Source: Spirochaetales bacterium (GTDB lineage Bacteria > Spirochaetota > Spirochaetia > UBA9216). From it: a stretch of 63,787 nucleotides of DNA. Under the pieces are notes generated by a model. The model was not told the origin of the DNA and did no database searches. It was given only the letters and a program-made list of their open reading frames with translations. The stretch spans positions 1-63,787 of the forward strand of contig JAEKNX010000022.1 in assembly GCA_016839055.1 (NCBI GenBank). The letters run 5' to 3'. Position 1 is the stretch's first letter. The number at the start of each line of letters is the position of its first letter. A program made the translations under genes and the position numbers. This document shows, piece after piece, positions 13,521 to 39,774 of the stretch.

Positions 13521-14216
13521 ATGTTTGATGTTAAGAGTCTGGCAAAGTTGTTATCAGTTTCCGAGAAGACTGTTTACCGATGGATTTCTAAAAAGGAAAT
13601 ACCGGTTTATAAGGTCGGAGAGAGTTACCGATTCAACCAGGCCGAAATTCTTGAATGGACAAGCAGGAAGAAGATTAAGGTCTCTGATAATATCTTTGAA
13701 GAGAAAAGAGCAGTTGAACTGCCTCATCCTATTCTTCATGAATGCCTGGCGAAGGGTGGAATCTACTATCACATTTCCGGGAGTACCAGAAAAGAAGTTC
13801 TTGACTCGGTTGTTAATGTAATAAATTTGCCTGAAGATGTTGACCGAGGCTTTATTGCCGATGCGCTTATAGCAAGAGAGAATCTCGGCACTACTGCTAT
13901 AGGGAACGGAATGGCAATTCCCCACGTCAGGAATCCCATTATTTTTCATCTGCAGAATCCCCTTGTCGGCCTTTGTTTTCTGGATGAGCCGATAGATTTC
14001 AAGGCTCCTGACGGCAGGCTTGTTGATACCCTCTTTACCATTATCACCTCGAATATCCATGATCATCTTTATATATTGTCGAGGCTGACCTATACTTTGA
14101 GTATACCTGAGCTTCGGAAGGAAATAGTCTCCACGCGGAACCGTCAGAGTATTATTAACACCTTCATTAACGCAATACCACCTAGGGCGGGCTCAGATTT
14201 GGAGAGTAATTTATAA
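13521..14216 (+). CDS. excisionase-type HTH fused to a PTS EIIA-2/PtsN domain
   Basis: A 231-residue regulator. Residues 1-50 form a MerR/excisionase-type DNA-binding domain (VKSLAKLLSVSEKTVYRWI...PVYKVGESYRF). Residues about 70-220 form a PTS EIIA type-2 (PtsN-like) domain with GMAIPHVRNP. His135 is the expected phosphorylation site. Phosphoryl state of the PTS could thus be linked to DNA binding. It is first in the operon, and its TAA overlaps the ATG of the next gene by one base. It is a strong candidate for the operon's own regulator. That link is inference from position. Confidence 0.85.
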   Translation: MFDVKSLAKLLSVSEKTVYRWISKKEIPVYKVGESYRFNQAEILEWTSRKKIKVSDNIFEEKRAVELPHPILHECLAKGGIYYHISGSTRKEVLDSVVNVINLPEDVDRGFIADALIARENLGTTAIGNGMAIPHVRNPIIFHLQNPLVGLCFLDEPIDFKAPDGRLVDTLFTIITSNIHDHLYILSRLTYTLSIPELRKEIVSTRNRQSIINTFINAIPPRAGSDLESNL

Positions 14217-16192
14217 TGCTGTATCCAATATTTATTTACCTGGCCTCTCTTGTTTTAACAGGGGCTTTATCGGCAGCCTTTTATAGAAACCACCGCTTTA
14301 GCAAATATTTTGCCGCAGTATCAAACGCCATTTTAAGCCTTATAATGCTTGTTTTCCTGATAAACAGGTTTGATAGTTTTCATGATGAAGTTTTCAAGAC
14401 CATCTGGTCTCTTCCAATGGCTGAGTTTCACGTCGGTGTAGATTTTCTAAGTCTGTTTTTCATGATACCTCTGCTGATCCTTGCCGCTGCATGCTCTATC
14501 TACGGTTCAGAGTATTTTAAAGAACATCGTTCCGGCAGATTCCACTGGTTTTTTTACGGGCTTCTTGTTGCCGGAATGATGATGGTTTTAATCTCCCGTA
14601 ATGTAGTTCTTTTTATGATATCCTGGGAAATAATGTCCTTTTCGTCTTTTTTACTTGTTATATCTGAGGCGCAGAAAGAGTCTGTTCGCAGGGCCGGATG
14701 GATTTATTTTGTTACGGCTCATGTCGGAACCGCATTTCTTCTGACGGCTTTTTTCCTGTTAGGCTCCGGTGCAGGCTCATTCAATTTTGAACTCTTCGGC
14801 CTTGTTCCGTTCGAGGTTGCTAAATCAAACCTGATTTTCATCTTCGCGCTGGCCGGTTTCGGCTTTAAGGCCGGATTTATTCCGTTTCATGTCTGGCTTC
14901 CTCTGGCCCATCCTGCCGCGCCCAGTCATGTCTCGGGACTTATGTCCGGTATCATGATAAAAATGGGGATCTACGGAATCCTGAGAGTCCTGATGTTTTT
15001 TACAAGCTATCAGACTTGGTGGGGAATTCTGCTTGTAATAATCGGGGCGTCTTCCGGCATTATCGGGATACTTTTCGCGGTCGGACAGCATGATATCAAG
15101 AGGCTGCTCGCATACTGCAGCGTAGAGAATATCGGTATAATACTAATCGGGCTTGGACTAGGTGTCCTAGGGAGGGCCTGGGATTATCCTCTTGTCTCAA
15201 TGTTCGGCTTCACCGGAGCTCTTCTTCACATTGTGAATCACGCGCTTTTTAAGGGTCTTTTGTTTCTCGGCGCCGGATCGGTTATCAGGCAGACTGGAAC
15301 CGGGGAAATTGACAGTCTCGGCGGACTTTTTAAAAAAATGCCGATGACGGGTTCATTGTTTCTCGCCGGATCAATTGCCGTTTCAGGATTGCCTTTTTTT
15401 AACGGTTTTATAAGTGAGCTTTTTATCTATGCCGGGGCAATCACAGGTGCGGTAGCATCAGCCGGATCTATTATGCCGATGGTGTGCGCGCTCGCTGTTA
15501 TGGCACTTGCCCTGACGGGAGGACTTGCCGCGGCAGGTTTTACGAAACTTTTCGGGATAGTATTTCAGGGAAATTCCCGGAAGACGGATATCTCATCCGC
15601 TGTTGATGTCCCATCGATGATGAAGCTCGGGATGATATTCCTGTCGGTCTTTCTGGTGTTTATAGGTATGATGAGTTTTCTGGTAATTCCCTTCATCGAA
15701 AAGCCAATGCTGCTGCTCTCCGGTGAGGCTGCCTCTCCTTTCATCTATCAGCTTTCTGATATCGGAGAAAAGGTCAGTATCCTTCTCGTCGCCCTTTTAA
15801 TATTAATGATCATCATATTTACGGTCGGCAAGATTTTCAGGAGAAAGACGGTTACAGATGTCGAAACCTGGGGCTGCGGTTACACTAAACCCGCGTCATC
15901 GATGCAGTATACCTCATCATCCTATGCTGAGCCGATTACAAGCCAGTTTGGCTTGGTATTGGCGGCGCGAAAAGAACTTCAATCTGATAATGAAATCTTC
16001 CCTGTAAAACCATGGTCTTTCAGGTCAAGTGTAGAAGACTGGTTTCTTTCCCGTGTTTTTATATGGTTTGTGAAGTTGATAGACAGGATTCTTTCCCTGC
16101 TGCGATGGTTTCAGTGCGGCCGGGCAGGTGTCTATGTCCTCTATATAGGGTGTATTATAATAATTTTATTTATCTGGAAGTTTGTTTTATGA
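14216..16192 (+). CDS. HyfB/HycC-like proton-channel subunit of an energy-converting complex
   Basis: A 658-residue membrane protein of the NuoL/M/N (MrpD-like) antiporter family with about 14-15 hydrophobic segments. It has the conserved FIPFHVWLPLAHPAAPSHVSGLMSG block and later HDIKRLLAYCSVENIG. Its C-terminal tail WGCGYTKPASSMQYTSSSYAEP is the signature that separates HyfB/HycC from NuoL. It should form part of the ion-translocating arm. Its stop overlaps the next ATG by four bases. Confidence 0.92.
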   Translation: MLYPIFIYLASLVLTGALSAAFYRNHRFSKYFAAVSNAILSLIMLVFLINRFDSFHDEVFKTIWSLPMAEFHVGVDFLSLFFMIPLLILAAACSIYGSEYFKEHRSGRFHWFFYGLLVAGMMMVLISRNVVLFMISWEIMSFSSFLLVISEAQKESVRRAGWIYFVTAHVGTAFLLTAFFLLGSGAGSFNFELFGLVPFEVAKSNLIFIFALAGFGFKAGFIPFHVWLPLAHPAAPSHVSGLMSGIMIKMGIYGILRVLMFFTSYQTWWGILLVIIGASSGIIGILFAVGQHDIKRLLAYCSVENIGIILIGLGLGVLGRAWDYPLVSMFGFTGALLHIVNHALFKGLLFLGAGSVIRQTGTGEIDSLGGLFKKMPMTGSLFLAGSIAVSGLPFFNGFISELFIYAGAITGAVASAGSIMPMVCALAVMALALTGGLAAAGFTKLFGIVFQGNSRKTDISSAVDVPSMMKLGMIFLSVFLVFIGMMSFLVIPFIEKPMLLLSGEAASPFIYQLSDIGEKVSILLVALLILMIIIFTVGKIFRRKTVTDVETWGCGYTKPASSMQYTSSSYAEPITSQFGLVLAARKELQSDNEIFPVKPWSFRSSVEDWFLSRVFIWFVKLIDRILSLLRWFQCGRAGVYVLYIGCIIIILFIWKFVL

Positions 16193-17082
16193 TTATAAAT
16201 ATAATAATTTCAACGGCAGCTGCTTTGGTTTTCTCACCCTTATTAATTGGTATAATAAACAAGACCAAGGCCTTTTTTTCCGGAAGGCGGGGCAGCCCGT
16301 TTTTTCAGATGTATTTTGATCTTTACAGGCTGTTAAAAAAAGACGCGGTGCGAAGCGGTACGACTACAATTGTTTTTATCCTAGCGCCGGTGATTGTCTT
16401 TTGTTGCACTCTTGCGGCAGCAGTCCTTATTCCGATATCCCCCGGAACCGGGATTATATCTTTCACGGGAGATTTTGTTCTTCTGTTTTACCTTCTGGGG
16501 CTTGCGAGGTTTTTCCTTATAATTTCGGCCCTCGATACCGGTTCATCATTTGAGGGGATGGGAGCCAGCAGGGAGGCTTTCTTTTCAGCCATGGCCGAAC
16601 CTGTTGTTTTCATTTCGATTCTCACAATCTTGAGACTTAACGGGACAACGAGTTTTACTGACGCGCTTGGCGGGGGGGGCGCAGGCAATTGGATTATAAT
16701 TTCACTTGCCACTGTACCTTTTTTCATTGTGATGCTGGCCGAGAACGCGAGAATCCCGTTCGATGATCCTAATACTCATCTTGAGCTTACGATGATTCAT
16801 GAGGTTATGATTCTCGACAACAGCGGACGGGGACTGGCCCTGATGGAATGGGCGGCATCAATTAAACTTTGGCTGTTTTCACTTATTATTGTAAGAATAA
16901 TCCTTCCAGGCTCAGTTTTAAGTTTTTTACTGACTTTTGTAATCGCGGTTATAATCGGAATAGTTGAGTCGGTTATAGCCAGAACGACTCTTTTGAAGAT
17001 TCCGCAGCTTCTGTTCAGCGCGGGAATAATTGCTTTTCTCGGCTTTTTTCTATCCTTCAGTAAAATCTTTGTGTGGTCTTAA
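16189..17082 (+). CDS. HyfC/HycD-like (NuoH-type) membrane subunit
   Basis: A 297-residue membrane protein with about eight hydrophobic segments, homologous to HyfC/HycD and NuoH. This subunit anchors the peripheral arm and forms the quinone-chamber-equivalent. Diagnostic stretches are SGRRGSPFFQMYFDLYRLLKK near residues 32-52, ENARIPFDDPNTHLELTMIHEVM in the middle and the Glu/Asp-rich loops beside them. The start at 16189 is chosen because it overlaps the preceding stop as ATGA and begins the hydrophobic segment. A longer in-frame start at 16012 lies inside hyfB. Confidence 0.9.
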   Translation: MIINIIISTAAALVFSPLLIGIINKTKAFFSGRRGSPFFQMYFDLYRLLKKDAVRSGTTTIVFILAPVIVFCCTLAAAVLIPISPGTGIISFTGDFVLLFYLLGLARFFLIISALDTGSSFEGMGASREAFFSAMAEPVVFISILTILRLNGTTSFTDALGGGGAGNWIIISLATVPFFIVMLAENARIPFDDPNTHLELTMIHEVMILDNSGRGLALMEWAASIKLWLFSLIIVRIILPGSVLSFLLTFVIAVIIGIVESVIARTTLLKIPQLLFSAGIIAFLGFFLSFSKIFVWS

Positions 17083-17083
17083 T

Positions 17084-17734
17084 ATGCAGAATAATTTATT
17101 GATTCTTATATCTTTACTGATAATACTAAGCAATATTTTTCTATTGGGTTCAAGTAGAACCGGCGCTATGATAAGGGGAATTGCATTTCAGGGGGTTCTT
17201 TTAAGTCTTCTGCCGCTCTTTCTTCCCTCTGAATCGGTCAGAATTTTAGATATTATTATACTTGCCGTTTTAAGCATCGCCATAAAGGGCGTGATAATCC
17301 CGCATTATCTCAGGAAGGTCACGAGAAATATCAGGACGAAGAAAGAACTGCATCCATACCTCGGTTATTCGGTATCGGTGATTTTCGGCCTGCTGGTTTC
17401 CTACGGATCTTTCTATTTTATAGGGAAACTTCCTTTCATGTATCTGAGCATTTCACCATTTAATACCTCGGCGGCCTTTGCCTCCATGATAATCGGCATG
17501 TTCATTATAGCTACCAGGCGTAACATCATTGCTCAGATTATCGGCTATCTGGTTTTTGAGAATGCCGGATTTATTCTCGGAATATCCATAGCATCGTCTC
17601 AGCCGCTTTTTATCGAGATTGGAATCCTGCTCGATCTGCTTGCAGGTATAGTTATAATGGTTGTTGCTGTAAACCATATTCATCTATATTTTGACAACGT
17701 AAATACTGATTCACTCGAGAGGCTGAATAAATGA
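17084..17734 (+). CDS. HyfE-like membrane subunit
   Basis: A 216-residue membrane protein with about six hydrophobic segments. It matches hydrogenase-4 component E, with SIAIKGVIIPHYLRK and LVFENAGFILG. HyfE is NuoK-like in its second half and contributes to ion translocation. The start at 17084, one base after the preceding stop region, gives the usual MQNNLL N-terminus. An upstream in-frame ATG at 17030 would lie inside the previous gene. Overlaps the next gene by four bases. Confidence 0.88.
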   Translation: MQNNLLILISLLIILSNIFLLGSSRTGAMIRGIAFQGVLLSLLPLFLPSESVRILDIIILAVLSIAIKGVIIPHYLRKVTRNIRTKKELHPYLGYSVSVIFGLLVSYGSFYFIGKLPFMYLSISPFNTSAAFASMIIGMFIIATRRNIIAQIIGYLVFENAGFILGISIASSQPLFIEIGILLDLLAGIVIMVVAVNHIHLYFDNVNTDSLERLNK

Positions 17735-19221
17735 CATCAATCCAGTTCATATCAATAATAATTGTAATTGTTTTTTTCTCGGGGATTCTGATTTCGCTTT
17801 TTCTAAGGGAGCAGAAGAGTCTGATTGTTGTTCCTCTCTGGAGTTCCGCAATTACTGCGATGTTGTCGATCTTTTTCGCGGTCGAGCTCAATAAGAGCGG
17901 GCCGTTCTTGTTTTTCGGAAATAATTTCATAGTTGATCAGCTTTCTATCTACCATGTTTTTCTTGTGAATATTGTTTTCCTTGCGGCCGGCATCTATATG
18001 CAGGATTATTTCGCGAAGGTTGAAGAAAAAAAAGGTGCTTCGGTTTTCCACTATCGAAGGTTTTCCATGCTGTGGCAGGCCTTTCAGCTGATGCTTCTGG
18101 TAGTAATTCTATCGAATAATATCGGGCTTACCTGGGTTGCGATGGAGGCCACGACTATATTATCTGCCTTCCTGATTATCAGCGAATCGAACTCCCTTTC
18201 TCTTGAGGCAATGTGGAAGTATCTGCTTGTATGCTCGGTCGGCATAGGACTTGCCTTCATCGGTACAATTCTCGTGGCAGCGGCCGGGAGGGAGCATGAG
18301 GCCGCTGAGCATATGAATACCTTCAGCGGTCTCTACGAGCACGCCTCGAACCTCAACCCCGCCCTGATGCTCTTTGCGTTCATCTTCATTGCCGTAGGAT
18401 ACGGCACCAAGGCGGGACTGGCACCCATGCATACCTGGCTGCCGGACGCCTACAGTCAGGCTCCAACACCTGTATTCCCCGTTTTTTCTGGTGTAATGCT
18501 GAATGCGGCTCTCTTTGTTATAATGCGCTATCTTCCTATTGTAGAAGCATCCATGGGCGAAAGCGGGGACGCGCGTTCAATCCTGCTTTTGCTCGGCTTT
18601 CTCTCGCTTCTTTTTGCTGCCGTCTTCATTCCCATCCAGCATGATCTTAAAAGGCTGCTGGCATACTCCAGTATCGAACACATAGGCATAATCACGATAG
18701 GTCTCGGCCTCGGAGGCCTTGGAACCCTTGCCGCTCTTTTCCATTGTATGAATAACTTAATTTCAAAAATACTAGTGTTTTTCTCATCCGGATCAATTAT
18801 TCAAGAATATAAAACAGATGATATGCGAAAGATCTCAGGAGTAATGAAGAGGATGCCGGTCTGGGGAAGCGCCTTTTTTGTTTCAGTTCTGGTGTTAATT
18901 GGGGTCGCGCCATTTTCTGTTTTTATGAGTGAGTTTATGATTGTGAGGGCAGCTTTTAGGCAGGGACGGTATTTGCTCTTCGGGCTCTTCATGCTGGGTA
19001 CAATAGCTATTTTTATAAGCATGCTTAAATATACGCTTGATATGGTTTTTAAACCTGGGCTCGAGGATGACGGAAGTCCGGAAAAAGTCAGATTATCCAA
19101 TATGATAATTATCATAGGCAGTATTGCTGTACTTCTTACTTTCGGGCTCTGGATGCCCCCTCAATTCCTGGATTTTCTTGAGAGCGCGGCCGCTATTATT
19201 GAAACGGGGATTAAAATATGA
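17731..19221 (+). CDS. HyfF-like proton-channel subunit
   Basis: A 496-residue NuoM/N-family antiporter-like protein with about 14 membrane segments. GTKAGLAPMHTWLPDAYSQAPTP, LVAMEATT-like TWVAMEATTILSAF and HDLKRLLAYSSIEHIGI are present, matching HyfF. The conserved Glu of the fifth helix and Lys of the seventh, used in proton transfer, appear intact by eye. Two antiporter-type subunits (this and HyfB) imply more than one ion channel in the complex. Stop and next ATG overlap by four bases. Confidence 0.9.
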   Translation: MTSIQFISIIIVIVFFSGILISLFLREQKSLIVVPLWSSAITAMLSIFFAVELNKSGPFLFFGNNFIVDQLSIYHVFLVNIVFLAAGIYMQDYFAKVEEKKGASVFHYRRFSMLWQAFQLMLLVVILSNNIGLTWVAMEATTILSAFLIISESNSLSLEAMWKYLLVCSVGIGLAFIGTILVAAAGREHEAAEHMNTFSGLYEHASNLNPALMLFAFIFIAVGYGTKAGLAPMHTWLPDAYSQAPTPVFPVFSGVMLNAALFVIMRYLPIVEASMGESGDARSILLLLGFLSLLFAAVFIPIQHDLKRLLAYSSIEHIGIITIGLGLGGLGTLAALFHCMNNLISKILVFFSSGSIIQEYKTDDMRKISGVMKRMPVWGSAFFVSVLVLIGVAPFSVFMSEFMIVRAAFRQGRYLLFGLFMLGTIAIFISMLKYTLDMVFKPGLEDDGSPEKVRLSNMIIIIGSIAVLLTFGLWMPPQFLDFLESAAAIIETGIKI

Positions 19222-20696
19222 AAGAAAGCAGCCTGATTATTAAATACAATAAAAGTAATCCGACCTCTAAAGTGCCGCTTCTCGGGGAAGATGTATTTCG
19301 GAAAAAGGTTCTTGAGATGACCCGCGGCGGAGGGAGAGTTAACTCCTTTTTTTCGGCGGAAAATGATAATGAGGATCTCGTGCTGTATCTGATAATCTCA
19401 TATGACGCCCGGGGTGAAACTCATGCGCTGTCTATGAAGGTTGAAAACAAGGCTTTTAAGTCTTTGACGAATGAGGATACGCAGTTTCATCTTTTTGAAA
19501 GGGAGATTTATGAACAGTCGGGAATAAGACCTCTCGGGCATCCATGGCTGAAACCCGTCAGATTTCCGGGCGGAAATGCCGGAGAGATGGATTTCTTTAA
19601 AATTGAAGGCCGGGAAATACACGAAGTGGCAGTAGGACCCATCCATGCCGGAATAATAGAACCGGGCCACTTCAGGTTTCAGTGTCACGGCGAGACTGTC
19701 TATCATCTTGAGACCTCCCATGGGTATCAGCACCGCGGAATTGAGAAGAAGCTCACAGGCGGTCCGTATCGCGATACAGTTTATAAAATGGGTGTTATAG
19801 CAGGCGACTCTACCGTCGCGCACTCAACTGCCTACGCCCAGATAATGGAAGCCTTTACCAGAACGGCAATTCCGGCCAGAGCACAGGCCGTCCGGGCCAT
19901 AGCTCTGGAGCTTGAGAGATGTGCAAACCATATAGGCGACATAGGCGCCTTGTCGGGTGATATCGGCTACCTGTCAACATCAGCCTACTGCGGCAGGATT
20001 AGGGGTGATTTTCTTAATATGAGTGCTCTTCTCTGTGGAAACAGGTTCTCCCGCGGCCTTGTACTTCCCGGAGGAGTCGGCGCGGATATAGATGATGATA
20101 TTAGAGAGCAGCTTGCCGCCCGGCTTGAAGCAGGGAAAAAGGATTTTCTGAGCGCGGCGTCATTATTATGGGAGACCCCCTCGGTTCTGGCAAGGTTTGA
20201 TTCAACAGGGATAATCTCTGCTGAGAGTGCCGAGCGGATTAAAATGGTAGGCCCCGCGGCAAGGGCCTGCGGGATAGAACGTGATGTCAGGCGTGATCAT
20301 CCATCAGGTTATTATCACCTGTCGTACATCCCTGTCTCAACATCGGAGATGGGGGACGTTTCATCGAGGGCCTATGTGCGCTGGCTTGAGGTGCAGGAGT
20401 CGATAAAGTTTATTGAAAAACTGCTTGCCGAACTTCCGGTTGGGGATTCAGGAAGAGAAACAGGAACAAACCTTAAGCCTGATTCCATCACTGTATCCCT
20501 GATCGAAGGCTGGAGGGGAGAGCTTTGCCATACGGCCTTGACAGACGGCACCGGAAGATTCAGGCGGTACAAGATTGTGGACCCGTCATTTCACAACTGG
20601 CTTGGACTCGCACTTGCCATGAGGGGCGGACAGATATCTGATTTTCCTGTCTGCAACAAGAGTTTTAATCTTTCATACTGCGGTTTTGATTTATAG
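19218..20696 (+). CDS. HyfG/HycE-like large subunit without the NiFe-site cysteines
   Basis: A 492-residue protein with a NuoC-like first 125 residues fused to a NuoD/HycE-like core (VGPIHAGIIEPGHFRFQ, SHGYQHRGIEKKL). In hydrogenases the first Ni-Fe motif is CGxCxxAHS. Here residues 195-203 read AGDSTVAHS, with Ala195 and Ser198 replacing the cysteines. The second motif DPCxxC reads Asp455-Pro-Ser457-Phe-His-Asn460. All four ligands are therefore absent and H2 chemistry is not expected. Such subunits define the Ehr (energy-converting hydrogenase related) complexes, whose substrate is unknown. The rest of the fold is well preserved, so it is not a pseudogene. Confidence 0.9.
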   Translation: MKESSLIIKYNKSNPTSKVPLLGEDVFRKKVLEMTRGGGRVNSFFSAENDNEDLVLYLIISYDARGETHALSMKVENKAFKSLTNEDTQFHLFEREIYEQSGIRPLGHPWLKPVRFPGGNAGEMDFFKIEGREIHEVAVGPIHAGIIEPGHFRFQCHGETVYHLETSHGYQHRGIEKKLTGGPYRDTVYKMGVIAGDSTVAHSTAYAQIMEAFTRTAIPARAQAVRAIALELERCANHIGDIGALSGDIGYLSTSAYCGRIRGDFLNMSALLCGNRFSRGLVLPGGVGADIDDDIREQLAARLEAGKKDFLSAASLLWETPSVLARFDSTGIISAESAERIKMVGPAARACGIERDVRRDHPSGYYHLSYIPVSTSEMGDVSSRAYVRWLEVQESIKFIEKLLAELPVGDSGRETGTNLKPDSITVSLIEGWRGELCHTALTDGTGRFRRYKIVDPSFHNWLGLALAMRGGQISDFPVCNKSFNLSYCGFDL

Positions 20697-20705
20697 GGGC
20701 ATCTG

Positions 20706-21464
20706 ATGATAAAAGTACTAAGAGCAAGAATTTTCCAAAAATACAGGACTATAAAATTCCCGAAGACTGTTCCGCAGCTCCCTGAGCGCTACCTCGGTAT
20801 CCCGAAAATAAATCAGGATGAATGCAAGCATGATTGCGCAGAATGTATTGAGGTCTGTCCTGTCGGGGCGATATCAAAGATTAGTGGAATAATTGATCTT
20901 GATCTCGGCAAGTGTATCTTCTGTGGTAAGTGTTCCGGGGCCTGCAGCGGTGATGCCATTGTTTTCTCAAAAGACTACCGGATGGCAGTTACCGACCGAA
21001 GCAGTCTATGCATTAGTGAAAAAATTGTCCTCCGGCGCGCCGAGACGCTTAATAAAGAGATGCTCCGGATTTTCAAACGCTCCTTGAGACTCCGGCAGGT
21101 AAGCGCGGGCGGCTGCAACGCGTGTGAGGCAGATGTGAACGTCCTGGGCACTGTAGGCTGGGATCTTGACCGTTTCGGAATAAAGTTTGTTGCCTCCCCG
21201 AGGCACGCCGACGGTCTTCTTGTAACAGGGTCTGTAACTAAAAACATGAGGAAAGCTCTGCTTAAAGCCTATGAGGCTGTACCGGAACCAAAGATAGTTA
21301 TTGCAGTCGGCAGCTGCGCGCTCTCAGGCGGACTTTTTATCAGCCATGATGAAACAGGTAACGGGGTTGATACTATTATTCCGGTAGATCTCTATATCCC
21401 CGGCTGTCCGCCGCATCCGCTGACCATCCTCGATGGCCTGCTTAGAATTCTGGGCCGCTGTTAG
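20706..21464 (+). CDS. fused ferredoxin (HyfH/NuoI-like) and small-subunit (HyfI/NuoB-like) protein
   Basis: A 252-residue fusion of two subunits that are usually separate. The N-terminal part carries two [4Fe-4S] motifs, CKHDCAECIEVCP and CIFCGKCSGACS, like HyfH/NuoI. Residues about 130-250 are NuoB/HyfI-like, with GGCNACEADVN, GSCALSGG and PGCPPHP giving the cysteines of the proximal N2-type cluster. The electron path up to the missing Ni-Fe site is thus intact. Starts 10 bp after the large subunit and ends the operon. Confidence 0.9.
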   Translation: MIKVLRARIFQKYRTIKFPKTVPQLPERYLGIPKINQDECKHDCAECIEVCPVGAISKISGIIDLDLGKCIFCGKCSGACSGDAIVFSKDYRMAVTDRSSLCISEKIVLRRAETLNKEMLRIFKRSLRLRQVSAGGCNACEADVNVLGTVGWDLDRFGIKFVASPRHADGLLVTGSVTKNMRKALLKAYEAVPEPKIVIAVGSCALSGGLFISHDETGNGVDTIIPVDLYIPGCPPHPLTILDGLLRILGRC

Positions 21465-28675: not shown

Positions 28676-28846
28676 ATGTTCTATTCTATAAATGAGATTT
28701 ATTTCATGTCTAAGAGTCACGGTGTTGAGCTGCAGCGCTCATTTGAGAACTGTAGAGGAAATGCAAACCAGGGGAAGTTGAAACGATCTTTTCGGCTGTT
28801 ACAGGGTTTAACTGCTGTAATTTTACCGATTACTAAAAAGCTATAG
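28676..28846 (+). CDS. small hypothetical protein, 56 residues
   Basis: A 56-codon frame downstream of a good promoter (TTGACT-17-TAATAT) and a GGAG ribosome site seven bases before the ATG. The protein (starts MFYSINEIYFMSKSHG, ends ITKKL) has no recognised domain. The basic, partly hydrophobic second half could form one helix. It is divergent from the ArsR-type regulator, which may control it, and its last six bases overlap the hutI stop on the other strand. It could also be the 5' remnant of a longer gene. Confidence 0.5.
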   Translation: MFYSINEIYFMSKSHGVELQRSFENCRGNANQGKLKRSFRLLQGLTAVILPITKKL

Positions 28847-30067
28847 GATTTTTAAACCCCTCTTAAATACTCTGTGCACAGGATTTGTACCGAAGTAGTA
28901 GGGGATCTCTGCTGGTTTTTCCAGGTTTAGAATCAGAATATCGGCTTGCATTCCCGGCATCAGGCTCCCTATGCGATCTTCCCGATTAATTGCCGATGCG
29001 CCCCCGAGGGTTGCGGCCCTGATTGCCTCTGAAACTGTCAATCCGCATTGAAAAACACCCAAAGCAATCATAAACGGCATCGAGTAGGAAGGGCAGGAAC
29101 CGGGATTGTAATCGGTGGCAAGTGCCACGGTAACTCCCGCGTCTATAAGCCGGCGGCCGTCAGCATACTTTTTCCCCTGAAGAAAGAATGGGACTCCGGG
29201 CAGGAGAACTGCCACGGTACCATGCTTTGCCATTAGCTTAGCCTCACCCGGGACAAGCTCCTCGAGATGATCGGCGGATACTGCGCCAAGCGAGGCTGCC
29301 ATTCCGGCGCCTCCGAGGGCGTTGAACTGTCCCGCATGAATTTTCAAGCCGAAACCCGCCGCCTTGGCCGCCGTCAGGATAGTCCTGCTCTCCTCTAGAG
29401 TGAAGGCTCCCTCTTCGCAGAAAACATCACAGTACTCTGATAGCAGGCGAAAGTCTCTAAGCGATGGGCCGGTGAGGTCCTTCATCACCTTCTCACGGTG
29501 ACGGTCTTTCGGCAGGCTGTGGGCTCCGAGATATGTAGATACAATTTCAAGAGCGGAGCTCCGGTTCAGAGATGCAGCGCACTTTAGTATTTTCCGCTCT
29601 GCAGCTGTGTCGAGGCCGTATCCGCTTTTTATTTCTACTGTGGTCGTGCCGTGGTCGGCCATGTGATTGAGCCTCTCCAGGGCCCTGGCAGTGAGATCTT
29701 CCTGAGAAGCCTGCCTAGTCGCCTTGACGGTAGAGTGGATGCCGCCGCCGGTTTTCAGAATCTCAAGATAGGTAGCGCCTTTGAGGCGCATCACCATCTC
29801 GCCTGTACGATCTCCGCCGTGAATAAGGTGGGTGTGCGAGTCAACGAAGCCCGGCATTAAAAGACGGCCTCCGGCATCGATAGTTTCTCGGGCACAGTAC
29901 CGAGACAGAATCCCGGCAGAGCTTCCTGTTTCCAGGACAAGGCCGTTTTTAACAGCAACTGCCCCTCCGGGTATTGCTCCCAGGCTGTCTATTCCGAAGG
30001 CGGAATTAGGCGGGATAGTCAGCAGCTGGGAGCTGTTATGGATAATCAGGTCAGCTTCAGGCTTCAT
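28841..30067 (-). CDS. imidazolonepropionase HutI
   Basis: Third step of histidine degradation: hydrolysis of imidazolone-5-propionate to N-formimino-L-glutamate. The 408 residues show the amidohydrolase metal motif FVDSHTHLIHGG (His78, His80), MRLKGATYLEI and ATDYNPGSCPS, all HutI hallmarks. It is last in the operon and its start overlaps the ftcD end by 11 bp. Confidence 0.95.
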   Translation of the reverse strand: MKPEADLIIHNSSQLLTIPPNSAFGIDSLGAIPGGAVAVKNGLVLETGSSAGILSRYCARETIDAGGRLLMPGFVDSHTHLIHGGDRTGEMVMRLKGATYLEILKTGGGIHSTVKATRQASQEDLTARALERLNHMADHGTTTVEIKSGYGLDTAAERKILKCAASLNRSSALEIVSTYLGAHSLPKDRHREKVMKDLTGPSLRDFRLLSEYCDVFCEEGAFTLEESRTILTAAKAAGFGLKIHAGQFNALGGAGMAASLGAVSADHLEELVPGEAKLMAKHGTVAVLLPGVPFFLQGKKYADGRRLIDAGVTVALATDYNPGSCPSYSMPFMIALGVFQCGLTVSEAIRAATLGGASAINREDRIGSLMPGMQADILILNLEKPAEIPYYFGTNPVHRVFKRGLKIL

Positions 30068-31739
30068 TGCCGCATCTTTTCAACGCATTCCTGAGCCCCT
30101 TTTTAACGGTTGAACGCGCGGATGACAGAAGCTCTGCGGCCTCGGCTCTAATGCTTTCTGCATAGCTGCGGTCATTCAGGCCTGGAAGGTTGATCATTAC
30201 ATTGAGGTAGGCACCGTTTGCAGCAGCTTCGGCCTGAGCGAGGGCGGAGCCCGCATCTGAGCCAGCCGCTGGAATGCCTCTCCGGAGGACCGTCTCGGCA
30301 ATGGCCGCTGCTTCCTTTGAGAGTCTGAGGGTTTCAAGCGGGACTTCAGTAATTTTCTTCGAGGCAGCATCAATTGCGGCCTCACGGACAGCAATCTCTT
30401 CGCGGCTTTTATTCGGCAGCCTCATGGCGGCGATATAACCGTTAAACGCATCAGTATCTTCATCAATCATCAAAAGGGCTCTATCTTTCAGCCTCTGGGC
30501 GGCGGTAGAGAGATCCGTCATCAGCTTACCGGCCCGTCTGAAATCTTTTTTACCGAAGGTGAGGTTGGAAACCATGCTCGATAGTCCGGCTGACATTGCC
30601 AGGGAGAGAGCTGCGACACTCCCGCCTCCCGGCGCAATCGATGATGAAGAGAGTTCGTCCGCGAAATCGCTGCAGCTCAAACCGCGGAGAGTTTTTCCGG
30701 TTTCGCCGGCTGCATACTCTATAATCTTCTCATCGGGATTAAATGGTTGAGTCTCGTTCAGTCCAAGTGAGCGAATTGCCGTGTGGATTATCTCCTTCTC
30801 GGGAATTCCGGTGTTAAGTCCGGCCCTTCGAAGATAGTGGAGGCCCGCGTCGAGCAGCGCTTTCTTCGGAAGAAGGCCCACTGCTTCACTTCCAGTGACT
30901 CTGAGACCCCGGGCTCCGGCCTCTTTCTCGACTGCGTCAAATCCATGATGGAGTCCGGTTTCCTGATAATTAGTCAGATTCATCGTTACCTGAGTATAGC
31001 CGTATTCGTCAATATACCAGCCCGCCGCCTGGCAGTGTTTCAGCAGGCCCGGAATAATTATCGGAGAACCATCAGGGTTTCGGATAATTTCGCCGTTCCG
31101 ATCTCTTTTTGCCCGGCCGCGTTCACGAACTGATAGTGCAATGTCGCGGGCAAGGGCCAGGTCGCGAGTATTCAGGTTGATGTTATAGGCAAGAAGAAAA
31201 TCTCTTGCTCCTATGGCTGTTGCTCCGGAACGCGGCAGGAAGACCGCTGGTCCTGCATCCGGAGTAAAGTCCGGCCTTTTAAGCTTCTCTTTTAAAGCTT
31301 CATATTCTCCATCCCTGATGTCGGGAAGAAAGCGCCGCTGGGGGCGCTCTGCGGCGTCGCCGTAGAGATAGACGGGAAGGCCCAGTTCCTTTCCGGCCCG
31401 GCTGGCAAGTCTTCTTGCGAGTTCTGCGCATCCTTCCATGCTGATGCCGGATACCGGGATTAGGGGGCATACATCGGTTGCGCCCATTCGCGGATGGGCT
31501 CCTTTATGCCGGCTCATATCAATTTTTTCCATCGCTGTTTTTATTACCAGGAAGGCGGCTTCGAGTACCGGTTCGGGTTCCCCCACAAAGGTGATAACCG
31601 TGCGGTTCGTGTCGGCGCCGGGATCAATGCCTAGGATGGTAACCCCCTCGACACCGGCAGCGGCTGAAACTACGGCATCAATTATTTTACTGTCGCGTCC
31701 CTCGGAAATATTAGGAACGCATTCTATAATTTTTTTCAT
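30057..31739 (-). CDS. bifunctional formiminotransferase-cyclodeaminase FtcD
   Basis: A 560-residue two-domain enzyme. Residues 1 to about 325 are the glutamate formiminotransferase: ECVPNISEGRD, RHKGAHPRMGATDVCPLIP. Residues about 355-555 are the formimino-THF cyclodeaminase: SIAPGGGSVAALSLAMSAGL. It moves the formimino group of formiminoglutamate to THF, then releases ammonia to give 5,10-methenyl-THF. Many bacteria encode the halves separately or use other hydrolases. The fusion here resembles the animal-type enzyme. It lies 3 bp after hutU. Confidence 0.93.
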   Translation of the reverse strand: MKKIIECVPNISEGRDSKIIDAVVSAAAGVEGVTILGIDPGADTNRTVITFVGEPEPVLEAAFLVIKTAMEKIDMSRHKGAHPRMGATDVCPLIPVSGISMEGCAELARRLASRAGKELGLPVYLYGDAAERPQRRFLPDIRDGEYEALKEKLKRPDFTPDAGPAVFLPRSGATAIGARDFLLAYNINLNTRDLALARDIALSVRERGRAKRDRNGEIIRNPDGSPIIIPGLLKHCQAAGWYIDEYGYTQVTMNLTNYQETGLHHGFDAVEKEAGARGLRVTGSEAVGLLPKKALLDAGLHYLRRAGLNTGIPEKEIIHTAIRSLGLNETQPFNPDEKIIEYAAGETGKTLRGLSCSDFADELSSSSIAPGGGSVAALSLAMSAGLSSMVSNLTFGKKDFRRAGKLMTDLSTAAQRLKDRALLMIDEDTDAFNGYIAAMRLPNKSREEIAVREAAIDAASKKITEVPLETLRLSKEAAAIAETVLRRGIPAAGSDAGSALAQAEAAANGAYLNVMINLPGLNDRSYAESIRAEAAELLSSARSTVKKGLRNALKRCGNEA

Positions 31740-31742
31740 ATC

Positions 31743-33425
31743 TCAGTTCTCCCAGTCCGGAAGAATTCCCGCTGCCTGTCCGTTTTTCACCGCCTCCTCG
31801 TATCCCGCGTCGGCATGGCGGAAGATTCCGAGTGCCGGATCATTAAAGAGGACCCGCCGGAGCGCTCGCTCGGCACGGTCTGTGCCGTCGGCAAGGACAA
31901 CCATTCCCGCATGCTGCGAGTATCCAATTCCGACACCGCCTCCATGGTGAAATGAAACCCAGGTGGCACCCCCTCCGGTGTTAGCCATCAGGTTTAGAAG
32001 CGGCCAGTCGGACACCGCGTCGGAGCCGTCCTTCATCTTTTCGGTTTCCCTGAAGGGGGAGGCAACCGAGCCGCAGTCGAGGTGATCCCGGCCGATGACA
32101 ATTGGTGCTTTAACCTTTCCGCTGCGGACAAGCTCATTGAAGATGACGCCCGCTTTCTCCCGCTCTCCGAGCCCCAGCCAGCATATCCGGCTCGGGAGCC
32201 CCTGGAAAGCTATCTTTTCACGGGCCTTATTTAGCCAGTTTATAAGATGTTTGTTTTCAGGAAAGGCTTCAATCAGGGCTTGATCGGTTTGGTAGATGTC
32301 GTCAGGTTCCCCGGAGAGGGCAACCCAGCGAAACGGTCCTTTGCCTTCGCAGAACAAGGGTCGGATGTAGGCAGGGACAAAGCCGGGGTAATCGAATGCG
32401 TTTTTTTCTCCTCCCTGACGGGCGAACTCACGCAGGTTATTGCCGTAGTCGAAAACCTGCGCTCCGCGTTCCTTCATTCTGAGCATGAAACCCACATGAC
32501 GGGCCATACTCCTGAGAGAGCGCTCTCTATAGGCATCAGGATCCTTTTTTCGAAGATCGAGGGCCTCCCCAAGCGGAAGACCGGCCGGAACATAACCGTT
32601 CAAGGGGTCATGGGCGCTTGTCTGGTCCGTTACAATATCCGGTGTTACTCGGTCATCATAGAGACGTTCAAGGATATCTCCCACATTAGCTACAAGACCA
32701 ACCGACAGCGGCTGTTTTTTTTGTATTGAATCACTTATCCAGGATATCGCCTGCTCATAGGAGGCGGTTATGCGGTCAATGTAGCGGTCATTCAGCCGCT
32801 TTTCAATTCGGGATTTATCCACATCTACTCCCAGAAAAGAAGCACCCGCCATAGTCGCCGCCAGCGGCTGCGCGCCGCTCATCCCGCCGATGCCTCCCGA
32901 AAAGATTAGTCTTCCTGTCAGATCTCCGCCGAAATGCTGTCTTCCGCAAGCCGCGAAGGTTTCATAGGTTCCCTGAAGAATCCCCTGGGTGCCTATATAG
33001 ATCCAGCTACCAGCGGTCATCTGGCCGTACATCATCAGACCGCGGTCTTTCAGCTCGTTGAAGTGCTCCCAGTTGGCCCAGTGGGGGACAAGATTAGAGT
33101 TTGCTATCATCACCCGGGGCGCCTCCGGATGCGTCCGTACTAGTCCAACCGGTTTTCCGGACTGGATGAGCAGACTCTCTTCATTTCCCAGGGTAAGCAG
33201 AGTCTTGATAATTCTCAAGACTGATTCAGGATCTCTTGCGGCCTGTCCGGTTCCGCCATAGACTACAAGCTCCTCCGGGTTTTCAGCTACTTCCGCATCC
33301 AGGTTGTTCAGCAGCATCCGAAGCGGAGCCTCGGTCTGCCATGAACGGGCATTGAGCTGCGACCCTCTCGGGGCGCGATAATTCGGATGGGACGCGTAGG
33401 TTTTAATAAAGTCCGAATAGTTCAT
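31743..33425 (-). CDS. urocanate hydratase HutU
   Basis: Second step of histidine degradation, hydration of urocanate using tightly bound NAD+. The 560-residue protein has [43 protein letters not shown] and [14 protein letters not shown]. The NAD loop and the Cys of [13 protein letters not shown] are present. The start at 33425 is preferred: AAGGAG lies seven bases before it, whereas the in-frame ATG at 33440 includes that ribosome site. Overlaps the end of hutH by 23 bp. Confidence 0.95.
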
Positions 33426-34983
33426 GGTTTTCTCCTTCAAATAATGGAATGTCGGCCTTCAGGGCTCCCCGGGAGGCGGCTTCAGTAAGTTTCTTCGACC
33501 GGATCAATTCAAGGGCGACGTTCAGATCATCTGCGAATACGCGATCATCATCTGCATGATTAATACACTCTCTTACCTCATGATGGCATTCCTCCAGAAC
33601 CGGGCTGGAGCGCATCGGCCGGCGGAAATCGAAGGCCTGGGCTGCGCACAGGAGTTCTACAGCGAGAATCTTTTCAACATTTTCGAGGATTGTATTAAGC
33701 TTCCGGCCGGAGATTGAGCCCATAGAGACATGATCCTCCTGACCTAGCGAGGTAGGGATGGAGTCGCAGCTGGCCGGAAAGCAGAGAGTCTTGTTTTCGG
33801 TAACCAGCGAAGCTGATGTATACTGCGGGATCATAAAACCTGAGTTAATTCCGGTATTTTTCATCAGCAGCGGCGGAAGTCCGTCGTCGCTTCCTTCGAG
33901 AAGCAGGTAGATCCGGCGGTCGGAGATGTTGCCAAGCTCCGCCGCGGCGAAGGCTGCATAATCCATGGGCAGCGCAATCGGCTGACCGTGGAAGTTGCCG
34001 CCGCTAACAGCTTCTCCCGATTCGAGAATGACAGGGTTGTCGGTTACCGAGTTGATTTCAGTTTCTACTGTTTCAGACAGGTGTAGCCAGGCCTGGCGCG
34101 CAGCTCCGTGAACCTGGGGCATACAGCGGAGGCTGTAAGGATCCTGAACCTTGGAACAGGCCTTGTGAGACTCAAGCATTTCGGAGCCATTCAGAAGGAG
34201 TCTCAGTCTCCGGGCTACATGACGGCTGCCACTGTAGGGACGGAGTTCATGAAGTTCTTTGCTGAAGGGTTTTACCGAGCCCAGAAGTGATTCCAGCGTC
34301 ATCGCTCCTATAAGATCGGCACAATCAAGGCAGTTATGAAACCTCTCAACTGCCGTGATACCATGGGAAGACATAAACTGGGTACCATTTATCAGGGCAA
34401 GTCCTTCTTTCGGTCCGAGTTTGAGAGGTGCAAGATCAAGTTTTGATAAAACTTCAGCGGCCGGATACAGCCTGCCCGAATAATTCACCATTCCGAGGCC
34501 TATAAGGGGAAGGAAAAGATGGGCAAGCGGCGCCAGATCTCCGGAGGCTCCGACTGACCCCTGTGAAGGAACACTTGGAATGATGTCATTGTCAATTTGA
34601 AACTGGATTCGCTTCAGGGTTTCGGGTGCCGAACCCGAATAACCACGGGCAAGAGTGTGAAGCTTCAGAATCAGCATCAGTTTTGATTTTTCAAAATCTA
34701 TCGGAGAGCCCATTCCTGAACTATGGCTTCGCAGGATATTTTCCTGAAGTTTAACAGTATCCTCGGCGCTGATAATTGTGCGGCAGAGCGGGCCGAATCC
34801 GGTGTTGATTCCGTAAGTAACCACCCCGTCATAGACTATTTTTTCAACAGCACGCCGTGAGCGGCTTACCGCTGTGAGCGCTTTTGAGCCGAGCAGTCCG
34901 GAAAGCCTTCCCCTGGCTATTTCGAGAGCTTTACCCGAGGTCAGGTGATCACTTCCATAATAAAAATTTAAAGAGTCACTCAT
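33403..34983 (-). CDS. histidine ammonia-lyase HutH
   Basis: First step of histidine degradation, deamination to urocanate. The 526-residue protein contains the Ala146-Ser147-Gly148 triad in [14 protein letters not shown] that cyclises to the MIO cofactor, YGINTGFG near residue 57, and the QDxxS-like [17 protein letters not shown] ribosome site lies inside the 3' end of the regulator gene, whose stop overlaps this ATG by four bases. Confidence 0.95.
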
Positions 34984-36336: not shown

Positions 36337-38124
36337 TTAATATTTTCCTCTTGCGGTATATGAGGTGTGAAGCAGGTGGTGTGATTTTTCACCGCAGGGT
36401 TCTCCTAAGAAATCTTTATAGATGTGCAGGACTTCAGGATTCAGGTGAGATTTTCTGATTGGAAGCGCATTGTCCTCCGCATATACTGCGTCCATCCTGC
36501 TCTGTCTTATTTCAGGAGTTGTCCTGATAGGCTGACCGCCGCCGCCGAGACATCCGCCCGGACAGGCCATGAATTCAATGAAATGATAATCAGCCTCACC
36601 CTTTTTCATCAGCTGCAGTACCGTTTTTACATTGGCGAGTCCATGCGCTACGGCTACCTTCAGCTCGACCCCCTCGAGGAAGGACCATGCAGGAAGCGCG
36701 TTTTCAATCTTAATCGCTGCGCTTTTTACCCCGGCCATTCCTCTAACGGGGGTTACATCCAGGTTCGTAAAAGGAATCTCACGGCCGGTAACTATCTCCC
36801 AGGCTGTCCGGAGGGCAGCCTCCATGACACCGCCGGTTGCTCCGAATAGTACTGCTGCTCCGGTATGGGCGCCGAGCAGGCTGTCACAGCTGCTGTCTTC
36901 AAGAGAGTCAAAATCTATGCCCGCCTCTTTTATCATATGGCCGAGCTCACGGGTTGTGAGTACATAATCAACATCCCGGAATCCGCTGTCGGTCATTTCC
37001 GGGCGCTGTGCCTCAAATTTCTTCGCGGTGCACGGCATAATCGATACGACCGTTATGTCGGCAGGATCTATGCCGGCGATATCGGCATAATAGGTCTTCG
37101 CGAGAGTTCCAAACATCTGCTGAGGTGATTTGCAGGTGGAAAGATGATTCAGAAGGTCAGGATATTCATGTTCCAGATACTTTATCCATCCAGGTGAACA
37201 GGATGAAAACTGGGGCAGCGCGCCGTGGCTTTTACCTTCGCCGGTAAGCGCGTGTTTCAGACGCATAAGCAGTTCGGTTCCTTCCTCCATAATTGTAAGA
37301 TCCGCAGTGAAATTGGTATCGAATACCTTGTCAAAACCCAGTCCGCGAAGGGCTGAAACCATCTTGCCTGTAACTCTTTCTCCGGCTGGATATCCCAGGG
37401 ACTCGCCGAGTGCAATTCTGACCGCCGGAGCCGTCTGAACTACAACATGTTTCGAAGGATCATCGATGGCGTTCCATACATCGGCAACGTAATTCTTCTC
37501 CGTCAGGGCTCCGGTGGGACAGCGGTTTACGCACTGGCCGCAGTTGGTGCAGACCACATAATGAAGAGGTTTATCGAGAAAGGTCGAAATCCGCAGTTCT
37601 CCCCCCTTATTAACTACTGCAAGTGCGTTTACTCCCTGCAGCTCTTCACATGTGCGTACGCAGCGCTGACAGCGGATACATTTTGAATCATCCTTGATTA
37701 TCGCCGGTGATGAAATGTCTATTGTATAATCGGCTGAGAGCTGAATGTAGTCATTTCCGTCAACACCATACTCAGCAGCAAGGTCCTGAAGTTCACAGTT
37801 TCCGTTTTTAGGGCAGCGAAGGCAGTTGGTGTCATGTTCTGACATCAGCAGGCTTATTAACTCCTTTCGTGTCTGTCGTACACGTCGGGTGTTCGTCTGA
37901 ATCTCTACCCCTTCGGTTACCACGGTTGCGCAGGCAGGCTGAAGCAGGTGAGAGCCTGAGATGTCGACGAGACACATCCTGCAGTTTCCGGCAATTCCGA
38001 GATCGGCATGATGGCAGAGAGTCGGTATATTAATTCCATTAATTCTCGCGGCGTCAAGGATGGTCAGATCCTTGTCGACATCGAATTCCTTTGAGTTTAT
38101 TGTAATATGAACTTTATCCTGCAT
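36337..38124 (-). CDS. [FeFe] hydrogenase catalytic subunit HydA, NADH-linked multimeric type
   Basis: A 595-residue protein. N-terminal NuoG-like [2Fe-2S] (Cys37, 48, 51, 65), a His97-Cys101-Cys104-Cys110 cluster site and two [4Fe-4S] motifs (Cys149-159 and Cys192-202) lead to the H-cluster domain. H-cluster motifs: SSCSPGW at 307-313, MPCTAKKFE with Cys365, and FMACPGGCLGGGGQP. It would reduce protons to H2 with electrons from ferredoxin and NADH through HydB/HydC. The first H-cluster motif has Ser310 where many enzymes have a second Cys. It is last in the hydCBA operon. Confidence 0.93.
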   Translation of the reverse strand: MQDKVHITINSKEFDVDKDLTILDAARINGINIPTLCHHADLGIAGNCRMCLVDISGSHLLQPACATVVTEGVEIQTNTRRVRQTRKELISLLMSEHDTNCLRCPKNGNCELQDLAAEYGVDGNDYIQLSADYTIDISSPAIIKDDSKCIRCQRCVRTCEELQGVNALAVVNKGGELRISTFLDKPLHYVVCTNCGQCVNRCPTGALTEKNYVADVWNAIDDPSKHVVVQTAPAVRIALGESLGYPAGERVTGKMVSALRGLGFDKVFDTNFTADLTIMEEGTELLMRLKHALTGEGKSHGALPQFSSCSPGWIKYLEHEYPDLLNHLSTCKSPQQMFGTLAKTYYADIAGIDPADITVVSIMPCTAKKFEAQRPEMTDSGFRDVDYVLTTRELGHMIKEAGIDFDSLEDSSCDSLLGAHTGAAVLFGATGGVMEAALRTAWEIVTGREIPFTNLDVTPVRGMAGVKSAAIKIENALPAWSFLEGVELKVAVAHGLANVKTVLQLMKKGEADYHFIEFMACPGGCLGGGGQPIRTTPEIRQSRMDAVYAEDNALPIRKSHLNPEVLHIYKDFLGEPCGEKSHHLLHTSYTARGKY

Positions 38125-38133
38125 GCCGTCCTC

Positions 38134-39315
38134 CTAATATATAATTTCTTCTTTGAAATAGTCGGTTGTTGAAATAAAGGGATGGGCTACCGACTGTCCG
38201 AGTCCGCATTTAGATGCTATCGACATTGTCTCCGCAATCTCCCTGAGATTATCCAGATAAGATGAGTGTTTTGTTCCGCGTTTGACTTGCTCAATTCCCT
38301 TCAGCAGCTGTTGACATCCTATCCTGCAGGGAGTGCACTGGCCGCAGGATTCCTCAGAAAAGAATTCGAGATAATCGTGCAGCACGTTGTACATCGAACG
38401 GGAAGAATTGAACAGCATCATCGAGCCGCCGGTAGGGACACCTTCAAATCCTATGATAGTTTTACTGAAGTTTTTCCTCGGAACACAGTAGCCCGAGACT
38501 CCTCCGACCTGAACTGCCTTGGTGTCATCATCACCGAAAAGATCAACGAAGTCGGACAGCTTCATCCCCAATTCCAGCTCATAGATTCCCGGAACAGGGG
38601 TGTCCCCGGACACGCAGAATACCTTTGCTCCCCTGGATGATTTAGTTCCCATCTGAATGAAGGAATCCGTACCCTCAAGAATAATATAGACAGCGTATAC
38701 CAGGGTTTCGACATTATTTACGACGGTAGGTTTTCCCATGAATCCTTCGGTTACAGGATAAGGCGGTTTGTTCCTGGCTTCTCCGCGCCGTCCTTCGAGT
38801 GATTCAAGAAGGCTTGTTTCCTCTCCGCAGACATAGGCGCCGCTTCCCATCCTGAGCTCTATGGAGAAATCAATCTTGAAATCATTCAGCAGTTTGTGGA
38901 AGGCTTCTATTTGGGCCGACAAATCCTTTCTCATATAACTGTATTCACCCCGCAGATATATGAAGCCTTTGCGCGCGCCGACGGCTTTTGAACAGGCTGT
39001 CATTCCGAGAAGTACCTTGGCTGCCTGCTTCTGGAGAATTTCGCGGTCCTTGAATGTGCCGGGTTCGCCCTCATCGGCGTTGCATACTATATATTTCTCG
39101 GTACCCTCGGCTTCGGAGACCATCTCCCATTTTTTCCCGGTAGGAAAACCGGCGCCGCCGCGGCCTCTAAGTCCTGAGGTTATCAGCTCTGTGATAATCA
39201 GCTCAGGAGCAAGTGCGTTTATCTCCCGAAGGGCTGCTTTTATATCGAGTTCACTAAACATAAGGTGAACCCGCTTCTTGTATTTTTCGATATCATTTAT
39301 CTTTCTATTATCCAT
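38134..39315 (-). CDS. HydB, NuoF-like diaphorase subunit (short form)
   Basis: A 393-residue flavoprotein subunit with FMN/NADH motifs GRGGAGFPTG (51-60) and CNADEGEPGTFKD (78-90), an SLBB region around 230-280, and a [4Fe-4S] site, SCGQCTPCRIGC, with Cys324, 327, 330 and Cys370. It passes electrons between NADH and HydA. It lacks the N-terminal thioredoxin-like [2Fe-2S] domain and the C-terminal ferredoxin domain of the longer HydB of characterised bifurcating hydrogenases, which may limit ferredoxin coupling. It starts 9 bp after hydC. Confidence 0.9.
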   Translation of the reverse strand: MDNRKINDIEKYKKRVHLMFSELDIKAALREINALAPELIITELITSGLRGRGGAGFPTGKKWEMVSEAEGTEKYIVCNADEGEPGTFKDREILQKQAAKVLLGMTACSKAVGARKGFIYLRGEYSYMRKDLSAQIEAFHKLLNDFKIDFSIELRMGSGAYVCGEETSLLESLEGRRGEARNKPPYPVTEGFMGKPTVVNNVETLVYAVYIILEGTDSFIQMGTKSSRGAKVFCVSGDTPVPGIYELELGMKLSDFVDLFGDDDTKAVQVGGVSGYCVPRKNFSKTIIGFEGVPTGGSMMLFNSSRSMYNVLHDYLEFFSEESCGQCTPCRIGCQQLLKGIEQVKRGTKHSSYLDNLREIAETMSIASKCGLGQSVAHPFISTTDYFKEEIIY

Positions 39316-39324
39316 ATAGCACCT

Positions 39325-39774
39325 CTATTCCCATTCTTCCAGGGCTACGATTGCTTTCTCGGGGGTGAGCTCTGTGTAGACCTTATCATTTATAATCATC
39401 GCCGGTGACTGATGACACCATCCGATACAGTTTGTCTGAAGAAATGTGAACTTCTGATCGGGGGTTGTTTCTCCGAGTTTTATCCTGAGATGTTTTTCGA
39501 TGGCATTAATGATGTCGGTTTTTCCCTTTAAATCACAGGATATTGTTTTGCAAATTCTTATAACGTTGCGGCCCAGCCTGGAAACATCAATAAAAGAGTA
39601 AAATGTCGCAACTCCGTACACTTCCGCGGCCGAAATGTCAAATGCTTTGGCTATATCCCTCATTGCTGTTTCAGACAGATAATTATTCCTGCTGATAACT
39701 TCCTGCATTACCGGCAGCAGCCGATTCCTTTCCGTACCTGTTTTTGAGATGATCTCCTGAATGTCAGTGTTCAT
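39325..39774 (-). CDS. HydC, NuoE-like [2Fe-2S] subunit
   Basis: A 149-residue thioredoxin-like ferredoxin subunit with the four [2Fe-2S] cysteines Cys75, Cys80, Cys116 and Cys120 (ICKTISC and TNCIGWC). YGVATFYSFI is typical of NuoE/HydC. It is the first gene of the three-gene hydrogenase operon. AGGAGG lies five bases before the ATG. Needed with HydB for NADH oxidation. Confidence 0.92.
   Translation of the reverse strand: MNTDIQEIISKTGTERNRLLPVMQEVISRNNYLSETAMRDIAKAFDISAAEVYGVATFYSFIDVSRLGRNVIRICKTISCDLKGKTDIINAIEKHLRIKLGETTPDQKFTFLQTNCIGWCHQSPAMIINDKVYTELTPEKAIVALEEWE

Follow-up and report, generated by a model that had tools for sequence, protein, structure and literature searches.

What can a membrane complex built like an energy-converting hydrogenase do when all four cysteines that would hold its Ni-Fe center have been replaced? 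This question is raised by a plus-strand operon (13521-21464) in a Spirochaetales bacterium (assembly GCA_016839055.1, contig JAEKNX010000022.1), which we analyzed within a stretch of 63,787 nucleotides, hereafter the window. An initial annotation of this DNA had recognized six Hyf-like genes at 14216-21464, and had assigned them to the Ehr complexes, whose redox partner it considered as not established.

Operon and family assignment

The operon is tightly packed, with gene junctions that are either overlaps of 1-4 bases or gaps of at most 9 bases. In order, it encodes an HTH_17-PTS_EIIA protein, HyfB-, HyfC-, HyfE-, HyfF- and HyfG-like proteins, and a ferredoxin-NuoB fusion. The first gene (13521-14216) codes for a regulator that combines an N-terminal excisionase-type HTH_17 domain with a PTS EIIA(Ntr/Fru) domain (Pfam HTH_17, PTS_EIIA_2). 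Its stop codon overlaps the hyfB-like start by one nucleotide (TAATG). The unit start at 14216 proposed earlier therefore captures the six Hyf-like genes correctly but is too short, because the HTH/EIIA gene belongs to the same unit.

The other genes encode the six subunits of the Hyf-like complex, as Pfam and NCBIfam domains confirm. EhrA (14216-16192) is a HyfB/NuoL-like antiporter-type protein (PF00361) with conserved transmembrane Glu and Lys residues; it matches NCBIfam hydrogenase 4 subunit B with 566 bits, a score under the equivalog's own cut-off. EhrB (16189-17082, PF00146) is a HyfC/NuoH-like membrane anchor with charged channel segments that are conserved in 73 sequences. EhrC (17084-17734, ATG start) is a HyfE-like membrane subunit (NCBIfam hydrogenase 4 membrane subunit, E = 3.6e-19), and EhrD (17731-19221) is a HyfF/NuoN-like antiporter-type protein (PF00361; hydrogenase 4 subunit F, 344 bits). 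The large subunit EhrL (19218-20696) consists of a NuoC-like N-terminal part and a HycE/NuoD-like domain without Ni-Fe ligands. EhrS (20706-21464; Fer4, PF01058) is a HyfH-like 2x[4Fe-4S] ferredoxin domain fused to a HyfI/NuoB-like domain. The operon thus holds the HyfB-, HyfC-, HyfE- and HyfF-like membrane subunits together with the large and small subunits expected of an Ehr complex.

Ehr was defined in Geobacteraceae. In a maximum-likelihood tree of NuoD/HycE homologues, EhrL from the window adjoins spirochaete relatives and four Geobacteraceae Ehr sequences (99/97), and 26 large subunits of the window type form one clade (100/99). The sister of this clade (100/99, with a long-branch warning) is a second cysteine-less type, followed by HycE/HyfG (93/94). 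The two members of this second type, L010 (genome G019) and L013 (G028), carry the pocket sequences FSATTAFASS or FAGTTAFSHA and end in ALSVAESDR or GLSVAENDR. A Myxococcales contig (L084, 676-10498) contains a divergent Ehr-like F-G-HI set that directly precedes a complete operon of the window type.

Published work describes Ehr as devoid of Ni-Fe ligands and concurs that its redox partner is not established (PMC10284858, PMC12342949, PMC4378227). HydDB leaves Ehr out as not metabolizing H2 (PMC5037454). Ehr of Geobacter sulfurreducens corresponds to GSU0739-0745 (Coppi 2005 and Marreiros 2013, as cited in PMC4378227). The tree, the shared gene order, the literature on ligand loss and the HyfH/HyfI fusion, which the initial annotation had noted and which turns out to be a trait of the whole family, all support the Ehr assignment. 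Judged by its sequence, the window complex is a genuine new member of this known family.

The former Ni-Fe pocket

Residues 195-203 of EhrL (AGDSTVAHS, 19800-19826) align to CGICGFAHS of E. coli HycE and HyfG, in agreement with the earlier proposal that they replace a CGxCxxAHS motif. The second proposed site was out of register. DPSFHN (residues 455-460, 20580-20597) had been read as the remains of DPCxxC, but aligns to HycE AATYAN and NuoD PSF.N and is a motif common to complex I and HycE. The true equivalent of DPCYSC is NLSYCG (residues 484-489) within the C-terminal segment FPVCNKSFNLSYCGFDL (residues 476-492, 20643-20693). The claim that all four cysteines are gone survives this correction: the ligand positions are A195, S198, S486 and G489, and EhrL has neither the CxxC nor the DPCxxC ligands of a group 4 [NiFe] hydrogenase.

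The initial annotation had also asked whether close relatives retain these cysteines, which would point to a sequencing artifact or a true hydrogenase. One scan of genome contigs turned up 542 candidates for stretches that encode relatives, and the 80 best were retained. The hosts of EhrL relatives include Planctomycetota, Verrucomicrobiota, Geobacter and its relatives, Acidobacteriota, Elusimicrobiota, Spirochaetota and others. Among 89 aligned large subunits from many phyla, none retains all four cysteines, and a single sequence (L070) has Cys at position 195 only. The same state in 89 homologues rules out a sequencing artifact or chance.

The replacement residues are themselves conserved. 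Apart from rare exceptions, position 195 holds Ala or Ser; position 198 is Thr or Ser and once Ala, 486 is Ser, and 489 is Gly. G196, D197, H202, C156 and C479 are invariant across the 89 sequences, and C488 is nearly so, being Ser once and absent once from a truncated contig. Residues 475-492 rank among the most conserved 18-residue windows of EhrL, with only 9 of 475 windows scoring higher. As read from these alignments, the former Ni-Fe pocket has not decayed; its ligands have been swapped for other residues that are themselves nearly invariant. The idea that Ehr is a decaying hydrogenase without function would account for the loss of all four ligands, and Ehr has been called non-functional in Geobacter KN400 (PMC13194489). 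We find this idea hardly credible in view of the many residues that are invariant across phyla, the pocket segments, whose conservation is among the highest in the protein, and the retention of a complete operon with a conserved regulator.

An AlphaFold monomer model of EhrL (mean pLDDT 84) has HycE (7z0s_E, TM 0.86) as its best fold match, and the best PDB match of EhrS is HycG (7z0s_G). Since the EhrL model has low confidence in the loops concerned (140-150 and 478-492), no pocket geometry was taken from it. The last residue of EhrL aligns with HycE Arg537, the site where the HycE precursor is trimmed on maturation, and no aligned relative extends past it. We considered this end point as a trait of Ehr alone and rejected it: NuoD and Mbx-type proteins stop at the same alignment column, which therefore marks a general loss of Ni-Fe maturation.

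A survey of 149 genomes from the same class, each at least 90% complete, detected EhrL of the window type (E<1e-160) in 12, of which 11 are intact. In the twelfth (G051) the large-subunit gene (L122, 917-2446) is either broken or an assembly error, and continues in frame into part of EhrS. HypD of the Hyp maturation machinery is absent from the window's own genome (97% complete) and from 8 of the 11 genomes with intact Ehr, which indicates that Ni-Fe maturation is not needed.

Electron path, candidate partners and regulation

EhrS carries two intact ferredoxin-type [4Fe-4S] motifs, and a family alignment of 77 sequences identifies C137 and C140 (CxxC), C204 and C234 as the proximal-cluster cysteines. 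Together with the conserved Glu and Lys residues of the membrane subunits, this supports the earlier statement that the channel, ferredoxin and cluster motifs are intact. The membrane arm, with its HyfC-like subunit and two antiporter-type subunits, likewise appears intact by these alignments. The CxxC spacing, as aligned, is of the hydrogenase type, unlike complex I, where the two cysteines are adjacent (CC), and unlike MBS, where the motif is shortened, one Cys has ceased to be a cluster ligand and one iron is freed (PMC7684303). With this spacing retained, the proximal cluster of Ehr seems to pass electrons to a separate site rather than to be catalytic itself.

This distinction bears on the possibility that Ehr, like MBS, reduces polysulfide directly on the proximal cluster. 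MBS is indeed a Ni-Fe-free, ferredoxin-using and ion-pumping relative (PMC7684303), and Ehr has in C488 a nearly invariant cysteine in the pocket region. Sulfane-sulfur reduction is nonetheless quite unlikely, because Ehr retains the full CxxC where the MBS motif is shortened, is distant from the Mbx-like clade, and in the window's own genome coexists with a separate Mbx-like complex. This second Ni-Fe-free complex (L117, contig C1:148000-163379) combines Mrp-type antiporter subunits with NuoH/B/C/D-like proteins and an NfnB/GltD-like flavoprotein. The same genome also encodes Rnf/Nqr-type subunits.

Alternatively, Ehr could transfer electrons from ferredoxin to menaquinone or ubiquinone at the quinone site of complex I, with which it shares fold and membrane arm. 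The window's own genome contains a UbiA/UbiD/UbiX cluster, and UbiA is mildly enriched in Ehr genomes (10/12 vs 65/137, p=0.03), possibly via genome size. However, the quinone ligands of complex I, His38 and Tyr87 (T. thermophilus Nqo4), align to I147 and G196 of EhrL. The proximal cluster has CxxC in place of the adjacent CC of complex I (PMC7684303). The quinone methyltransferase MenG/UbiE is missing from 8 of the 11 intact-Ehr genomes and MqnA/D from 10; the window's own genome lacks both. G043 lacks any UbiA. G051 was dropped as a further UbiA-free example on account of its defective large-subunit gene. Quinone reduction is thus disfavored and in our judgment unlikely, with demethyl-quinones or unrecognized enzymes as possible ways around these absences. 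EhrS is the sole NuoB-family protein in 5 of the 11 genomes, which shows that Ehr does not act as an accessory to complex I.

A link to formate or formate dehydrogenase (FDH) has been proposed for Riflemargulisbacteria and Saganbacteria (PMC6349859), and Geobacter proteomics found Ehr to be more abundant on formate (PMC7894505). The presence of FdhA in the window's own genome agrees with such a link, but FdhA shows no association with Ehr across the survey (3/12 vs 28/137, p=0.71), is absent from 8 of the 11 intact-Ehr genomes, and no FDH gene is a frequent neighbor in the 80 genome-contig loci. This link therefore appears improbable. Taken together, the surveyed genomes speak against a requirement of Ehr for hydrogen, formate or quinone as a partner. 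Clustering of 614 ORFs flanking the 80 loci likewise disclosed no redox partner next door, as no cluster occurs in more than 8 loci; the lack of a conserved redox gene beside Ehr fits a soluble carrier. Elsewhere in the window, 36337-39774 (-) encodes NuoE-like, NuoF-like and [FeFe]-hydrogenase proteins, an NAD-linked and possibly bifurcating hydrogenase. By the ORF list, 28841-34983 (-) looks like a histidine-utilization cluster, with genes that resemble imidazolonepropionase, formiminotransferase, urocanase and histidine ammonia-lyase.

We propose, with a probability of roughly 60%, that Ehr is a member of the complex I/group 4 hydrogenase superfamily that works as a ferredoxin-linked oxidoreductase, translocates ions and neither makes nor uses H2. 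A low-potential carrier, most likely ferredoxin, would exchange electrons with the complex along the two ferredoxin-type [4Fe-4S] motifs and the four-Cys proximal cluster. The other redox party would be a small molecule or cofactor bound in the remodeled EhrL pocket; most likely this is a small-molecule substrate other than H2, and probably not a quinone. The exchange would be coupled to movement of H+ or Na+ through the membrane arm, such that either reduced ferredoxin builds a gradient or the gradient is spent to reduce ferredoxin.

Of the 64 loci with enough upstream sequence, 59 have an HTH-EIIA gene upstream and on the same strand, usually within 100 bases of a HyfB-like gene. The motif around its phospho-acceptor His (AIPHVRNP) is conserved in 60 copies. 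Among 60 related genomes, close homologues (E<1e-40) are confined to those that carry Ehr (G000, G003, G006, G043 and G059). A narrow literature search found no report linking such a regulator to Ehr, and an operator search upstream of the gene gave weak repeats only. It is likely that this protein adjusts expression to the phosphorylation of the PTS, and hence to carbon or nitrogen status. A bolder reading, to which we give somewhat less than even odds, is that the former Ni-Fe pocket, with GDxxxxH and the C-terminal CNKSFNLSYCGxDL as its marks, has turned into a new type of active site for a substrate foreign to known complex I relatives, in an operon wired to the PTS via this dedicated regulator.

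Beyond the known features of Ehr, this analysis brings out a pocket with invariant replacement residues, a proximal cluster of the hydrogenase type and a regulator of the PTS type, and contributes the genome survey. Ehr complexes are widespread, and their near-invariant replacement residues speak against the view of a dead hydrogenase. The candidate substrates are narrowed to exclude H2 and probably also quinone, formate and polysulfide. The conserved regulator offers a new physiological handle on Ehr, and spirochaete genomes with Ehr as their sole complex-I-type machine provide clean test systems.

Comparison with known systems

As compared via sequences from Geobacteraceae MAGs, Geobacter-type Ehr has the same gene order, the same lack of Ni-Fe ligands, and HyfE-like and NuoL-like subunits. 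The window differs in having one HyfB copy, where many relatives, including Geobacteraceae, have two. Geobacteraceae-type loci also contain a CsoSCA-like carbonic anhydrase gene (PF20686, E=2.9e-8; L052 3585-4664, L056 3677-4765, L081 1936-3021, L092 3671-4750, L101 568-1635), which, wherever both HyfB copies are complete, sits between them and recalls complex-I-type CO2 hydration systems.

MBS/Mbx of P. furiosus resembles Ehr as a Ni-Fe-free group 4 relative with a ferredoxin wire and as an ion pump, a function that Ehr would share. In contrast to Ehr, MBS has Mrp subunits, retains two cysteines in its large subunit, and differs in its proximal cluster, which is altered (PMC7684303). Mbx-like large subunits form a clade of their own in the tree, and the window complex shows neither the shortened small-subunit motif nor an Mrp-type arm. 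Respiratory complex I (NuoB/NuoD) shares the fold of large and small subunits, the PSF.N motif and the membrane arm, whereas Ehr lacks the quinone His/Tyr pair and the adjacent CC, and has no NuoEFG in its operon. Compared with E. coli hydrogenase-3/4 (HycE, HyfG), Ehr does without Ni-Fe ligands, the C-terminal extension and an operon protease gene; HyfH and HyfI are fused, and HyfA, HyfD and HyfJ have no counterpart. These hydrogenases nevertheless provide the closest solved fold, contain the same subunit types and have the same CxxC in the small subunit.
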